Source of the DNA: Methanolobus sp.
Lineage (GTDB): Archaea > Halobacteriota > Methanosarcinia > Methanosarcinales > Methanosarcinaceae
Reading direction: 5' to 3'
DNA length: 35,103 nt
NCBI RefSeq assembly: GCF_030682845.1
Contig: NZ_JAUXNK010000028.1
Span: 1 to 35,103 of the forward strand
Position 1 is the first letter of the stretch, and each line of letters begins with the position of its first letter. The translations under genes and the position numbers were made by a program. Below, in pieces: positions 12,894 to 27,226 of this stretch. The notes below the pieces were generated by a model. That model worked only from the letters and a program-made list of their open reading frames with translations. It was not told the origin of the DNA and did no database searches.

Positions 12894-12969
12894 ATATAGC
12901 TATTTTACCAGTTGATAGTAACGCGTAAGAATCTCATGTCTCTTACCACCACAAGAGTTGCATACTGTA

Positions 12970-14700
12970 ATGAAGCTACATCCAATAGTCGCCCGGTTTT
13001 CTTTGCTTCTGATGCTCTTTGGCCTTCTTTTCCTGCCAATTGCATCGTGTGAAGAAAACGTTTATGTGATAGGGATACTTTCCCACAGAGGTCCGGACCA
13101 TTCCCTGAACACGCTGGCCAAAACGGCAGAATACCTCTCCGATGAGGTTCCGGAATGTAATTTTGAGATAATGCCTTTGGATTATGACGAGATATTTGAT
13201 GCAGTAAGCAATGAGGAAGTCGATTTTGTCCTGACAGATCCCTTCCTGTATGTGGAACTGGAATCCACTTACGGGATTAACAGGATAGCTACATTGAAGA
13301 ACCGTTGGGATGGTAACGCCTACACAGAGTATGGCGGGGTTATCATTACCAGATCTGATAACACTAATGTCAATGAGCTCAGTGACCTTAAGGGCAAGTC
13401 GTTGATGGCAGTGGATGAGCATTCATTTGGAGGGTTCTGGATAGCTGTGCGAACCATGGAACAGAGTGGTATTGATCATAGGAGAGACTTCAGCCACATA
13501 TCTTTTGGAAAGACACACGATGCCGTAGTCTATGCAGTGAGGAGCGGGAGTGTCGATGCAGGTGTTATCAGAACTGATGTGCTGGAGCAGCTTGAAGCGG
13601 AAGGGAAGATAAACCTTTCGGAATTCAAGGTGATCAATCAGCAATATGTGGAAGGTTTTCCTTTCCTGCTCAGCACTGAGCTCTATCCCGAATGGGCATT
13701 CTCAAAAGCGAGTTCTACATCCCTTGACCTTTCAGAAGAGGTAGCAATTGCGTTGCTCAGTATGCCCTCTGATAATATTGCGGCACAGTCAGGTAATTAT
13801 GCAGGCTGGACTATCCCTCTTGATTATGCGCCAGTGCATGATCTCATGAGGGAATTGCGCCTGGGTCCTTATGAGAACTACGGCAGAGTTTCCCTGGATG
13901 AGGCTATAGCGCAGCACTGGTACTGGGTGGTTCTCTTCTTCATGCTGCTGGTGCTGATAGTCACATACGACCGCCTTACGACAGAGAAGATAAAAAAGGC
14001 AGAACTTGAAAGGTCTAACAAACTCAAGGACCTCTTTACGGATATAATGCGGCATGATCTCCTGAACCCGGCCGGAGCTATCAAAGGTTTCAACGATGTG
14101 TTATACTTTAAAGAAGAGGACGATGAGAAAATAAAGATCATTAAAACTATCGACCGGCAAACCGACAAGCTGATATCCATGATCGACTCAGCCGCAAAGC
14201 TTGCAAAACTTGAATCCTCTAATGAACTGGAACTGAGTAAGAAGGATTTAGGAGCTGTAATAAGGAATGTGGCTGAGAGCTTTGATCACGGCCTCATGGA
14301 GAAGAACATCACATTGGAGCTTGCAACTCCTGGTAAATATCCCTCCAGGGTCAATGAGATCATAGAAGAGGTATTCTCTAACCTTATGTCTAATGCTATC
14401 AAATACAGTCCTGAGGGAAGCAGGATAAAGGTAGAGATCATCGATGCGGGAGCTTACTGGAAGGTCCATGTCATCGATAATGGCGATGGTGTGATCGATG
14501 AGAACAAATCACGCATATTCGAGCGTTTTACACGGGCCGACAGGAAGGGTATAAAGGGTTCAGGTCTTGGACTTGCTATCGTCAAAAGGATTATCGATCT
14601 GCATAACGGGTTTGTTGGCGTGAACGACAATCCGGAAGGCAAAGGTTCCGTGTTCTGGGTCGCCCTCAAAAAATGCGATCATGGTGCAGGTATGCATTAA
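12970..14700 (+). CDS. Sensor histidine kinase with PhnD/TtrS-like extracellular domain
   Basis: 576 residues from the ATG at 12970. A signal peptide/anchor (about 1-27) leads to a PhnD-type periplasmic binding domain (about 35-305; VIGILSHRGPDHSL, DFVLTDPFLYVE, GKSLMAVDEHSFGGFWIA), like that of the tetrathionate sensor TtrS. A membrane segment (about 316-337) connects to the kinase core: H box MRHDLLNP with phospho-acceptor His near 362, N box NLMSNAIKYSPEG, DNGDGV, F box and GSGLGLAIV. The HDLLNP form is common in archaeal kinases. The ligand is unknown; the family binds small oxyanions or organophosphonates. No response regulator lies next to it. Confidence 0.9.
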   Translation: MKLHPIVARFSLLLMLFGLLFLPIASCEENVYVIGILSHRGPDHSLNTLAKTAEYLSDEVPECNFEIMPLDYDEIFDAVSNEEVDFVLTDPFLYVELESTYGINRIATLKNRWDGNAYTEYGGVIITRSDNTNVNELSDLKGKSLMAVDEHSFGGFWIAVRTMEQSGIDHRRDFSHISFGKTHDAVVYAVRSGSVDAGVIRTDVLEQLEAEGKINLSEFKVINQQYVEGFPFLLSTELYPEWAFSKASSTSLDLSEEVAIALLSMPSDNIAAQSGNYAGWTIPLDYAPVHDLMRELRLGPYENYGRVSLDEAIAQHWYWVVLFFMLLVLIVTYDRLTTEKIKKAELERSNKLKDLFTDIMRHDLLNPAGAIKGFNDVLYFKEEDDEKIKIIKTIDRQTDKLISMIDSAAKLAKLESSNELELSKKDLGAVIRNVAESFDHGLMEKNITLELATPGKYPSRVNEIIEEVFSNLMSNAIKYSPEGSRIKVEIIDAGAYWKVHVIDNGDGVIDENKSRIFERFTRADRKGIKGSGLGLAIVKRIIDLHNGFVGVNDNPEGKGSVFWVALKKCDHGAGMH

Positions 14701-15677
14701 TCGGCTTTTCTCAGGACTATGGACCCGTCGCGCATACGTACTTCTATATATTTTTCCTTTTCAGGCTCAAGCTCATATTTGTTGTACAGGGCAGCGTCTA
14801 TCCTGCCAGCTTCCATTATTTTGTGCATTAGTGCAGCGTCTTCTCTCCCCATCCTTACCTTCCCTACAGGTGGGTTTGTCTTCACCCTGCTTCTGGAATA
14901 TATGGTGCCGCGTGTCATCCCTGCGCCGATGTAGCCCTTAGCATCCTTAAAGGCAAGAATGCCGCATTTCATATAGGCGCCTGCAAACTCACCTACGCTT
15001 CCAAGGACAGCCACCGTTCCTCCATTAAGGTGCGATCCGGTATTCATGCCGGCATTACCATTGACAATGACCATGCCTTCACGCATGAGCACACCTGTGC
15101 CATTGTACGCATCACCTTCTACGCGGATGGTTAGGGGCCTGGTGCAGCGTGCTCCTATCGTTCCCCTGAGGATGCCGTCGTTGAGTAAAAGTGTCCTTTC
15201 ATCTGGGTTGTAGCTGTTTGACACAAGGAAGTCCTTTCCAGGGCCGTTGCAGACGATGTCGGTTATAGAGCGGAACTTTCGATAGTTTTCAATATCTGAC
15301 CTGACTTCGATGATATTTCCCAATGGCTCGCTGATACTGCCCGATACATAGAGTGTGCCTGCAACCATTCCCATAGCAGCCTCAGGTCCGACATCCCCAT
15401 CCACAAATATCCGGCCTGCACTTTCCAAATTGCCGCTCCCCCCCAGGTGCTGCACGTCAACTCCTGCACTGTAGGCGAAGTTCCTGCCGACATTTCCTGT
15501 TATTTTAACATCTTTTCCGTTTTTCAGTGCCATTACAAGGTCCCGATATCTCACTTTGGTATCTTTCTGGAAAGGAATTAAACTATCAGGATCTAATGAC
15601 TTGTTGTGCCAGTGAAAATTGAAAGTATAGTCCAGCAGGTAGTCTGCACTGGCTGTTAATTCTATTTTGACCGGCAT
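14697..15677 (-). CDS. GXGXG-motif protein related to FwdC / glutamate synthase GXGXG domain
   Basis: 326 residues. From about residue 55 to 260 it is a right-handed beta-helix of Gly-rich turns (VKITGNVG, IFVDGDVG, LYVSGSIS, IRVEGDAYNGTG, VIVNGNAGMNTG, VAVLGSVGEFAG, GYIGAGMTRG), as in formylmethanofuran dehydrogenase subunit C and the C-terminal domain of glutamate synthase. No cofactor motif is visible; in both relatives this domain is structural, so here it may scaffold redox partners. It starts six bases after the ferredoxin stop, as last gene of the sulfite reductase cluster. It is not next to other fwd/fmd genes, so true FwdC function is unlikely. Confidence 0.8.
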   Translation of the reverse strand: MPVKIELTASADYLLDYTFNFHWHNKSLDPDSLIPFQKDTKVRYRDLVMALKNGKDVKITGNVGRNFAYSAGVDVQHLGGSGNLESAGRIFVDGDVGPEAAMGMVAGTLYVSGSISEPLGNIIEVRSDIENYRKFRSITDIVCNGPGKDFLVSNSYNPDERTLLLNDGILRGTIGARCTRPLTIRVEGDAYNGTGVLMREGMVIVNGNAGMNTGSHLNGGTVAVLGSVGEFAGAYMKCGILAFKDAKGYIGAGMTRGTIYSRSRVKTNPPVGKVRMGREDAALMHKIMEAGRIDAALYNKYELEPEKEKYIEVRMRDGSIVLRKAD

Positions 15678-15683
15678 ATTACT

Positions 15684-16052
15684 TTATCCATGTATCAGCT
15701 TTGGAAGGCATCGTGTGCATACCCATATGCTTTCCATCTTGTGTCTGGCAGGCATAAGATACGCTTTTTCCTCTCCGCAGCCGCAACTGAAGCACTGGAT
15801 GGATGTATCGGTCTTCTTAGGTTGTGCATGGGCTTTTTCAGGATTGAATTCCAAGGTATGCCTCTGCTCTATGGTAATTGCTCCAACAGGGCATAGTCCT
15901 ATACAAAACCCCATTCCATCGCAGAGATCATCAGAAACCACCTTTGCCTTGCCATTGACAAGCTCTATTGCTCCCTCGGCACATGGTGATATGCATTTTC
16001 CGCATCCTGTGCATTTCTCCTCATCGATTTTAACTATTGATCTTTTAGCCAT
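15684..16052 (-). CDS. Two-cluster ferredoxin with C-terminal Cys-rich module
   Basis: 122 residues from the ATG at 16052, which has GGGGGA eight bases before it; the longer reading to 16148 overlaps the CGGC gene and is rejected. First cluster motif CTGCGKCISPC is a full [4Fe-4S] site. The second, CDGMGFCIGLCP, has Met at the usual second Cys, so it may hold a [3Fe-4S] cluster or use another ligand; this form is known in related ferredoxins. A C-terminal CFSCGC ... CTRC module could bind Zn or another Fe-S centre. It probably supplies electrons to the sulfite reductase upstream. Confidence 0.85.
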   Translation of the reverse strand: MAKRSIVKIDEEKCTGCGKCISPCAEGAIELVNGKAKVVSDDLCDGMGFCIGLCPVGAITIEQRHTLEFNPEKAHAQPKKTDTSIQCFSCGCGEEKAYLMPARHKMESIWVCTRCLPKLIHG

Positions 16053-16072
16053 GTTAAATTCCCCCGGACATC

Positions 16073-16393
16073 TTAATGATGTGTTCCCGCAACCAGTTTT
16101 ATATTTGCATTGGTAATAGTCCTTTTTATCTCTTCGATATGAGGACATACAGGGTAATTATCCATCTGCATGCAGGAACTTAGATGGATGACATCCACTC
16201 CATGTTTCAGGAGGGATTTTACCAGCCTGTGGACCCTGCGCCCGGAACATCCGCCGCACGTAAAGACTGCTATCATCTCGACATTCTGGCTGTAATTGCT
16301 GAAATGCACCGTGCGCCTGTTGAAAGCCTTGAGGCAACCCACGCCCGGACATGTATCTGATACGATATTGCATCTTATTACTGCTATCTTTGT
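16073..16393 (-). CDS. CGGC-domain protein with no visible start codon
   Basis: The frame reads IAVIRCNIVSDTCPGVGC, then VFTCGGCSGRR, LLKHGVDVIHLSSC and CPHIEEIK: the full set of conserved Cys/His of the CGGC domain, a small family thought to bind metal or Fe-S. The family normally starts with Met just before the K-I-A-V-I-R-C strand; here that codon is ACA (16391-16393). The frame stays open upstream to a TAA at 16448-16450 with no ATG, GTG or TTG. The only standard start, GTG at 16342, would remove the first two conserved Cys. It lies between sulfite reductase and ferredoxin on the same strand. Confidence 0.65.
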   Translation of the reverse strand, partial: TKIAVIRCNIVSDTCPGVGCLKAFNRRTVHFSNYSQNVEMIAVFTCGGCSGRRVHRLVKSLLKHGVDVIHLSSCMQMDNYPVCPHIEEIKRTITNANIKLVAGTHH

Positions 16394-16471
16394 CGCAGGT
16401 TCAATATCTACGATAACATCAGCTCCGCTTTTAAGAAGTTTGATACATTAAATAAAAGAAGGAGAAGGGTA

Positions 16472-16487
16472 ATTTTCCCCGGAAAAT
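16472..16487 (-). terminator. Dyad with pyrimidine-rich tail after sulfite reductase
   Basis: ATTTTCC-GG-GGAAAAT on the minus strand, ten bases past the sulfite reductase stop and followed by a C/T-rich stretch (CCCTTCTCCTTCTTTT). It could attenuate transcription into the three downstream genes, giving more reductase than partner proteins. Confidence 0.4.
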
Positions 16488-16496
16488 GCTTATGAC

Positions 16497-17156
16497 TTAT
16501 AAGCCGATCTCTTTCTTGAAACTATCAATGCCCATCTCATCGATGGCTCTGCCCAGGCGGTGCTTTGAACCGTTGGTCTTGCAGAAGCTGATGATCTTGT
16601 CAACAAGCTTGAGTACTTCATCCTCTGTCAGTTCATCTGCGATAACATCAGCAAGTCTTGGCTTGATGGCTGCATTTCCTCCAACCATGACAGTGTATCC
16701 CTTAGGGGTACCCATGACTCCGATATCCTTTATGGCAGGTTCAGAGCATGAGTTCGCACATCCGGAAACAGCCATCTTGAATTTGGATGGAAGTGGCATT
16801 CCGTGATATAATTCATCAAGTTTCAGTCCGAGACCGACAGCGTCCTGCTGTCCGCGCTTACAGAATGTCGTACCAGGGCATATCTTGATGCTCCTTACAC
16901 ATAATCCGATGGCTGCACCTGGTTTTATTCCAAGTTCTTCCCATGCATTATCGAGATCCTCTTCTTTCAACCCTACAATAGCAACTCTCTGGGATGAAGT
17001 TACTTTCAATGTTGCAGCGTTATACTTCTCTGCAACATCTGCAATCTTGCGAAGCTGCTGAGCTGAAACAATTCCACCGGGTATATGTGGCGCGATAGCG
17101 TACGTTTCCTGGTCTCTCTGGAGGATAGCTCCTTTTTCAAGTAGGTCTTTTGACAT
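16497..17156 (-). CDS. Small siroheme nitrite/sulfite reductase
   Basis: 219 residues from the ATG at 17156 (GAGGAG nine bases before). One ferredoxin-like half domain (HIPGGIVSAQQLRKIADVAEKY) is followed by the siroheme-[4Fe-4S] ligands CPGTTFC (C-x5-C) and SGCANSC (C-x3-C). This is the low-molecular-weight type known from Methanosarcina barkeri P590, about half the size of ordinary assimilatory enzymes. It reduces sulfite (or nitrite) by six electrons; whether for assimilation or detoxification is not settled, since methanogens are poisoned by sulfite at methyl-CoM reductase. It heads a four-gene minus-strand cluster and is divergent from an HxlR regulator. Confidence 0.92.
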   Translation of the reverse strand: MSKDLLEKGAILQRDQETYAIAPHIPGGIVSAQQLRKIADVAEKYNAATLKVTSSQRVAIVGLKEEDLDNAWEELGIKPGAAIGLCVRSIKICPGTTFCKRGQQDAVGLGLKLDELYHGMPLPSKFKMAVSGCANSCSEPAIKDIGVMGTPKGYTVMVGGNAAIKPRLADVIADELTEDEVLKLVDKIISFCKTNGSKHRLGRAIDEMGIDSFKKEIGL

Positions 17157-17202
17157 ATAATTCACTCCTCATCCAAAATTAATTATGGACTACTGCTATA
17201 TT

Positions 17203-17224
17203 AGGATAGGGACATATATATCCT
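17203..17224. promoter_or_regulatory. Inverted repeat AGGATA-N10-TATCCT over the hxlR TATA box
   Basis: Perfect six-base half sites flank GGGACATATA. The TATA-like ACATATATAT (17211-17220) lies inside, about 25-30 bases before the HxlR ATG at 17245, so the HxlR message would be nearly leaderless and the repeat would cover TBP. The same 88-base gap must hold the sulfite reductase promoter. A site for the HxlR protein itself is the simplest reading. Confidence 0.5.
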
Positions 17225-17244
17225 GTAGTTTCCTATTGGATACT

Positions 17245-17601
17245 ATGAAAGACTGTACCATCTACAAGACAGTTGATATGGTTGGGAAAAAATGGTCCCT
17301 GTGCATCATGCATGAGTTATACAAAGGTGAAAGCAAGCACAAGCGGTTTAATGAGCTCAAGAACCAATTGCAGGATGTCACCCCCAAGACCCTTTCGGCA
17401 AGGCTGAAAGAACTGGAGGAGAATGGCCTTGTAGAGAAGTGTGTTGATAATTCGGTATTCCCCGTCAAATGCGAGTACTCGCTTACTGAGAGCGGAGAGG
17501 AATTCCTTTTTGTCCTGCAGGACATCAAGAAATGGGGGCTCAAATGGAAATTCGAGAATATCGAATGTGAGAACTCTAACTGCCAAAGATGCCAGTTATG
17601 A
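17245..17601 (+). CDS. HxlR-family winged-helix regulator
   Basis: 118 residues from the ATG at 17245, which gives the typical HxlR start MKDCTIYKTVDMVGKKWS. The Cys near residue 4 is often a thiol/electrophile sensor in this family. The recognition helix and wing follow (TPKTLSARLKELEENGLVEK). A Cys-rich tail (ECENSNCQRCQL) adds three more cysteines, which could sense redox or sulfur species. The start upstream at 17185 would overlap the promoter dyad and is less likely. It is divergent from the sulfite reductase cluster and probably controls it. Confidence 0.88.
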   Translation: MKDCTIYKTVDMVGKKWSLCIMHELYKGESKHKRFNELKNQLQDVTPKTLSARLKELEENGLVEKCVDNSVFPVKCEYSLTESGEEFLFVLQDIKKWGLKWKFENIECENSNCQRCQL

Positions 17602-27005: not shown

Positions 27006-27155
27006 CCCTCCACTTCACAGGCTGTCCAACAATTCAATTTCATCGAAAAAACAGAGAAAATGAAGGTCTATAAAGCCTTTAAATTGGAAAAAAAGGAAAT
27101 AACCTATTACTGTTAGTAATTGTCGGACAGCCTGTTCAGTGGAGGGAGTAGTCAC
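27006..27155 (+). ncRNA. Right end / omega RNA scaffold of the second TnpB, split by a MITE
   Basis: CCCTCCAC (27006-27013) and GTGGAGGG (27139-27146) form a perfect eight-base hairpin with TTCA loop once the insert is taken out, followed by AGTAGTCAC. It matches the first TnpB right end (CCACCC hairpin then TAGTTCAC). The guide would begin near 27156. The insert may disable the omega RNA. Confidence 0.6.
27018..27134. mobile_element. 117-bp MITE with 17-bp inverted repeats and TTCA duplication
   Basis: Terminal repeats CAGGCTGTCCAACAATT (27018-27034) and AATTGTCGGACAGCCTG (27118-27134) match at 16 of 17 positions. Perfect TTCA copies flank it (27014-27017 and 27135-27138). The inside is A/T-rich with no reading frame. 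The parent transposase is not in this window and I cannot name its family. Confidence 0.85.
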
Positions 27156-27226
27156 TATCTAAATAAGCAATGTGATTAGGGAGCTAAAGCTTCCGCCTCT
27201 GCTTGGGTTGGGAAGACAGATACGTC

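Follow-up and report, generated by a model that had tools for sequence, protein, structure and literature searches.

A siroheme reductase gene cluster of Methanolobus and its predicted operator, shared with hcp across the Methanosarcinaceae

The contig NZ_JAUXNK010000028.1 of Methanolobus sp. (assembly GCF_030682845.1), analyzed from position 1 to 35,103 (35,103 nucleotides, termed the window), carries a gene for an HxlR-family regulator divergent from a row of four genes encoding a small siroheme reductase (SiR), a CGGC-domain protein, a ferredoxin and a GXGXG protein (GX). The cluster probably represents the siroheme reductase arm of a Methanosarcinaceae stress regulon under one HxlR-family regulator with nitrosative or oxidative challenge as the inducing condition, a reading to which we assign a probability of about 0.6. 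Comparison of the genomes establishes that the genes are linked, that one type of HxlR regulator goes with one DNA element and that this predicted operator is present at both SiR and hcp, the gene for a protein of the hydroxylamine reductase family. With the same operator at SiR and hcp, one predicted regulator is common to SiR and Hcp. Gene linkage and the sites in trans make co-regulation of SiR-CGGC-ferredoxin-GX with hcp the best-supported statement, and such co-regulation is very probable.

The intergenic DNA on the HxlR side of the cluster is strongly conserved between genera with the consensus GTATCnAnnTAGAAACTnnCnAnTATATAAATnAGTATCnnTAATATACTnAGTATCnAAAAGATACT. The operator model R1 is a sequence-only model of 68 positions trained on 21 HxlR-adjacent sequences with no hcp-only sites. 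Searching the window genome (2.87 Mb) with R1 at an E-value of 0.1 returns three sites in total, for which the E-values of this short-calibrated model are rough, one in the HxlR/SiR promoter (contig C28, 2.6e-9) and two at the hcp locus on contig C59 (27431-27496, 1.0e-7, and 27114-27178, 4.8e-6). The hcp gene, also identified by a genome-wide profile search, is located at C59 27521-29200 with a cupin gene downstream, and the better site is placed 24 nt before it. No HxlR gene is found in the stretch of C59 that was read. The second C59 copy (L350) directly precedes a short remnant of an Hcp-like gene, which is followed by the intact hcp, and genome G044 has the same double arrangement. Across the family, an R1 site at E <= 1e-4 is present in 97 of 112 genomes, the 15 siteless genomes having no HxlR orthologue or weak paralogues alone, and the gap between site and hcp is 18-41 nt with a median of 26 in 38 genomes. 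A site is also found at a DUF166-CGGC-ferredoxin-GX locus in seven of the eight Methanohalophilus genomes, two of these loci being read at sequence level. Further sites occur at G003:C117, G048:C146 and G067:C22, with the gene context read for part of the sites listed. The view that the element is merely an archaeal promoter was rejected as the whole explanation, the scan returning almost exclusively these loci.

The preliminary description of the cluster had drawn attention to cysteines at both ends of the regulator, and these are well conserved, with Cys4 and Cys108-x4-Cys113-x2-Cys116 invariant in a 12-sequence alignment. Cys4 together with the C-terminal CX4CX2C pattern is present in 96 of 100 distinct HxlR copies; the remaining four are without the C-terminal pattern, those looked at being truncated where the locus ends. 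The neighbors of the 96 Cys-type copies are SiR (77), Hcp (10) and CGGC (7), with two where the probe set recognizes none, one of them a locus of genus group g2 (L304) in which HxlR faces an Fsr-type protein. The regulator gene is divergent to hcp in Methanohalophilus (L300 and L305) and in genus groups g9 (L301), g12 (L302 and L303) and g6 (L308, L309 and L141/L364), and the hcp genes of L300 and L301 score 733-868 bits against the hydroxylamine reductase models TIGR01703/NF003658. Hcp is also seen to occupy the slot of SiR, forming the order Hcp-CGGC-ferredoxin in L140 and HxlR facing Hcp-CGGC in L141/L364.

From these comparisons we infer a scheme in which the HxlR protein, probably a repressor, would bind the ~65-nt operator overlapping both its own promoter and that of SiR-CGGC-ferredoxin-GX, and in trans the hcp-cupin promoter. 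The conserved Cys4 and CX4CX2C may be modified by the signal or may ligate a metal or Fe-S cluster, such that the regulon would be induced upon nitrosative or oxidative challenge. Hcp would then remove NO or hydroxylamine. SiR would receive electrons from the neighboring ferredoxin and reduce nitrite or hydroxylamine (or sulfite), with the CGGC protein and GX as possible electron-delivery or assembly partners. The signal is suggested to be nitrosative because of the presence of Hcp, the position of NirB as the nearest family to SiR, the placement of CGGC-ferredoxin behind FprA and rubrerythrin, and the precedents of HcpR, A. acetoxydans and FsrII. In A. acetoxydans the half-size siroheme protein DEACI_1836, AsrABC and Hcp are induced together on nitrate (PMC10949509), and FsrII from anaerobic methanotrophic (ANME) archaea is a nitrite/hydroxylamine reductase (PMC9295563).

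The bacterial HcpR regulon contains hcp, frdX and a gene for a putative sulfite/nitrite reductase, with hcp-frdX and the reductase operon reported to be up-regulated in nitrite stress (Rodionov et al. 2004, PMC545781). The arrangement described here is similar in that one predicted operator serves hcp, a ferredoxin and a sulfite/nitrite reductase-like gene and in that the regulator gene is often beside hcp. It differs in that HcpR is a CRP/FNR protein recognizing an 18-bp palindrome, whereas the candidate regulator is an archaeal winged helix protein of the HxlR family with a different and longer element, and the CGGC and GXGXG proteins are additional. A tentative extension, possible rather than probable, is that the system is the archaeal counterpart of the HcpR regulon, in which a metal or Fe-S site formed by Cys4 and CX4CX2C would let HxlR sense NO or nitrite, and CGGC-ferredoxin(-GX) would deliver electrons to SiR or Hcp.

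The regulator shares its fold family with the HypR/YodB/HxlR redox regulators of Bacillus, and comparison with the PDB places Cys4 in alignment with Cys14 of the YybR (HypR) structure (PDB code 4a5m). The second HypR cysteine, Cys-49, has no equivalent, and in its place the invariant C-terminal CX4CX2C is present. The position of Cys4 is consistent with a general oxidative (O2/peroxide) stress regulon that is not nitrogen-specific, as are the location of CGGC-ferredoxin downstream of rubrerythrin and an FprA-type flavodiiron protein in g9/g12 and the rubrerythrin-SiR pairs found in several genera. This alternative is nevertheless rather unlikely, Hcp being the one target in trans that the scan of the window genome returned and the inspected operator sites being free of genes for catalase, superoxide dismutase and peroxiredoxin.

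SiR is closely related to the Group I Dsr-LP/alSir proteins (PMC3448663 and PMC6286981) with a single siroheme-4Fe4S half-repeat of ~220 amino acids, 219-222 in the homologues of the cluster, and no ferredoxin domain. Its sole domains above cut-off are NIR_SIR_ferr (67.6 bits) and NIR_SIR (106 bits), so that the ferredoxin domain of Group III and an F420H2 dehydrogenase/oxidase domain are both absent. The latter distinguishes it from the F420-dependent Fsr and FsrII (FNiR), which are likewise siroheme nitrite/sulfite reductases of the order; an Fsr-type gene faces HxlR in g2. The coupled siroheme-4Fe4S cysteine motifs C-x5-C and C-x3-C are formed by CPGTTFC and CANSC, and of the sulfite-binding Arg/Lys set (three or four residues in this class) the first Arg position appears, by sequence reading alone, to be Ser. 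The single PF01077 match in the whole window genome is the cluster SiR, which is the only NIR_SIR gene found there.

The preliminary description took the unit to be a possible sulfite-handling one. Along these lines SiR would produce sulfide from sulfite with ferredoxin electrons in detoxification or assimilation, protecting Mcr, and Hcp would be co-induced because sulfite and oxidant exposure are coupled. Enzymes of the alSir type are reported as sulfite-reducing (PMC6286981), methanogens are inhibited by sulfite with relief by Fsr (PMC3448663), and a GXGXG homologue adjoins Group III Dsr-LP, a class reported to be up-regulated on sulfide exposure (PMC12138975), in three Methanoperedens loci. 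However, Methanococcoides burtonii is described as having alSir yet remaining sulfite-inhibited, and a full sulfate assimilation route is missing from most species with alSir (PMC6286981). The operator is common to SiR and hcp, the HxlR/CGGC(-ferredoxin) genes occur elsewhere with Hcp and CGGC-ferredoxin with FprA, and the top NCBIfam profile for SiR is NirB (nitrite reductase, 177 bits) with sulfite_red_C at 67 bits. Sulfite handling as the defining function is thus not sustained and is considered unlikely.

Several observations count against assigning the cluster to a nitrosative or oxidative stress regulon under HxlR. A Lys-Phe-Lys sequence is located ahead of the second cysteine motif of SiR, which we take to be a sulfite reductase-like feature. 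The sites beside HxlR share common descent, so that only the trans sites provide independent evidence, and the trans sites at hcp could themselves stem from an ancestral HxlR-hcp divergon. Genome G054 has the hcp site, but an HxlR orthologue is missing from its draft assembly, and no operator is seen by eye before the orphan SiR genes of the rubrerythrin-SiR-hdrED context. In Methanomethylovorans two sites (L400 4229-4289 and L401 4276-4340) are upstream of a gene reading as the catalytic subunit of carbon monoxide dehydrogenase, an Hcp relative, and this CooS-like context is not obviously nitrosative; the HcpR regulon of D. vulgaris similarly takes in genes associated with this dehydrogenase (PMC545781). 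Sulfite reduction by Group I Dsr-LP enzymes has been reported (cited in PMC6286981), and what Hcp does in methanogens is itself under debate (PMC10210160).

A single shared, genome-specific element would connect two enzymes of doubtful role (SiR, PMC6286981, and Hcp, PMC10210160) and name their candidate regulator. If the stress regulon is correct, methane-producing archaea would have a defined response to reactive nitrogen, which would bear on the suppression of methanogenesis by nitrate and nitrite. The literature searched, covering CGGC-domain proteins in methanogens and HxlR with Methanosarcina hydroxylamine reductase, contains no earlier account of the regulon and no paper on these partners, in agreement with the preliminary view that they are undescribed. 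The portions of PMC3448663 and PMC6286981 used here likewise describe no such neighbors or regulation for Group I Dsr-LP/alSir and call the physiological role unclear.

The five genes are confirmed in the window by profile searches and by its translations and are listed with the operator in Table 1. The half-size siroheme reductase, the CGGC protein and the Met-substituted ferredoxin on one strand, as first described, are borne out by profiles and alignments.

Table 1. Genes and operator of the cluster with their coordinates in the window.
Feature	Position	Strand	Basis
GXGXG/FwdC-like beta-helix protein, 326 aa	14697..15677	-	distant FwdC profile match and structure model
Ferredoxin, 122 aa	15684..16052	-	one complete 4Fe-4S motif, CDGMG motif short of one Cys, C-terminal CX2C...CX2C
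CGGC-domain protein, ~113 aa, probable ATC start	16073..16414	-	PF08821
Small siroheme reductase, Group I Dsr-LP/alSir type, 219 aa, ATG start	16497..17156	-	PF03460 and PF01077
Predicted divergent promoter/operator element, shared with hcp promoter	17179..17243	-	GTATC ... GAAAC ... TATATA ... GTATC-type repeats; model R1
HxlR-family regulator, 118 aa	17245..17601	+	PF01638; Cys4 and C-terminal CX4CX2C

The ATG at 17156 is taken as the SiR start in preference to the GTG at 17165, since the alignment with most relatives begins at residue 3-4, and the starts of the ferredoxin (16052, not 16148) and of HxlR (17245, not 17185) are placed where they are because the homologues have stops or no homology upstream. 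The regulator matches its family profile at 82.5 bits. The CGGC protein scores 112 bits against a gathering cut-off of 27 and has the invariant motifs FTCGGC-G-RR and CM...CP; its structure model shows a generic alpha/beta fold for which the fold search gives no match at E <= 0.001. In the ferredoxin the first cluster motif is CTGCGKCISPC and the second is CDGMGFCIGLCP, in which Met replaces the second Cys. This Cys is missing in all 14 aligned homologues, one of which has Leu at the position.

The GX protein was initially described as a FwdC-like beta-helix. The structure model (pLDDT 87.6) retains the beta-helix, with FhcC, FwdC and the GXGXG beta-helix of glutamate synthase as the best PDB folds, yet the relationship is distant with a TM score of ~0.3 and profile scores below every curated cut-off (62.3 versus 130.65 bits for TIGR03122, FwdC, and 24.7 versus 32.5 bits for PF01493). 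A separate FwdC-like match is found on contig C20 of the window genome. As modeled, the GX protein is a FwdC-like beta-helix and not FwdC itself, for which a scaffold role is plausible.

Conservation of the gene order was compared between genus groups comprising Methanococcoides (g7), Methanohalophilus (g10), Methanomethylovorans (g11), ANME-3 (g14) and g13, taken as Methanosarcina. SiR is present in 26 of 27 Methanolobus genomes, and 23 of these 26 hold the full row of HxlR facing SiR-CGGC-ferredoxin-GX, with alignment gaps, in the order from HxlR to GX, of ~77-99, 58-125, 32-50 and 8-25 nt. The GX gene starts 8-25 nt past the ferredoxin frame in the Methanosarcinaceae genomes having both. 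Among the full-row genomes the GX frame is broken in G052 and the CGGC gene is split in G059. In the SiR genomes without the full row, a contig end is met in G048 and an 8.3-kb insertion separates CGGC from ferredoxin in G056. In G049 the CGGC gene has decayed to a remnant with loss of ferredoxin and GX, and G054 lacks the unit. The unit is thus seen to be decaying in some Methanolobus (G052 and G049, loci L015/L138). Reverse operation of SiR as a supply of sulfite for coenzyme M synthesis, its partners being incidental, is put forward for alSir in PMC6286981; the stress-type co-regulation with hcp and the absence or decay of the unit in G054 and G049 argue against it, and this explanation is highly improbable.

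All 11 Methanococcoides genomes have the same row with ~900 nt between SiR and CGGC, occupied by a DUF166 gene in L121 and L122. The preliminary expectation that these genes are neighbors in other genomes as a conserved redox unit facing a Cys-rich HxlR therefore holds for most Methanolobus and for Methanococcoides, and the neighborhood conservation is well beyond chance expectation. Elsewhere the gene set is modular, with CGGC-ferredoxin as the core and GX and SiR variable. The Methanosarcina-like genomes and g5 have HxlR facing SiR-cupin-CGGC-...-ferredoxin without GX, so that a scaffold as a fixed part of the unit, as originally proposed, is not upheld, and several of them have a tandem HxlR-SiR duplication. 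In Methanomethylovorans HxlR faces (cupin)-CGGC-ferredoxin-GX with no SiR in the row, CGGC-ferredoxin-GX without SiR is found in Methanohalophilus, ANME-3 and family f3, and the ANME-2 family f4 has the arrangement ferredoxin-GX-rubrerythrin-SiR.

In the SiR tree the unit-linked and orphan proteins of Methanolobus, Methanococcoides, Methanohalophilus, Methanomethylovorans and ANME-3 cluster together, and the Methanosarcina unit copies form a separate clade including the tandem paralogues, with many deep forks weakly supported. This fits SiR being an old family gene with a changing context. A second SiR context, (rubrerythrin)-SiR-hdrED-like genes, is seen at L310, L312, L315, L317, L148 and L150.

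The CGGC frame has no ATG, GTG or TTG before the conserved N terminus in nearly all Methanolobus and in all 11 Methanococcoides genomes, a few copies having an in-frame GTG or TTG mostly within the conserved part. The codon at the position of the Methanosarcina ATG is ATC (ATA twice) in Methanolobus, with ATT one codon on in Methanococcoides, and in both genera it is preceded by a GGAG/GGTGA-type ribosome-binding site. In the window the ATC is at 16414-16412 (-) with GGAG 8 nt upstream (element 16412-16426). A conserved non-AUG start of the CGGC gene is the simplest reading of these alignments.

The three Methanoperedens loci with a GXGXG homologue directly after Group III Dsr-LP are among L203, L204, L209 and 13 other loci. 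In 13 Methanoperedens loci the GXGXG gene follows a 325-aa gene that resembled a second reductase, a reading that was rejected, the one scanned being FtsZ. A second GXGXG subfamily, ~47% identical, occurs at L144-L147, beside cytochrome c maturation genes in L144-L146, and was set aside as a paralogue. Convergent with the GX gene of the window, a phosphonate-type periplasmic binding domain is fused to a histidine kinase (12958-14700, +).

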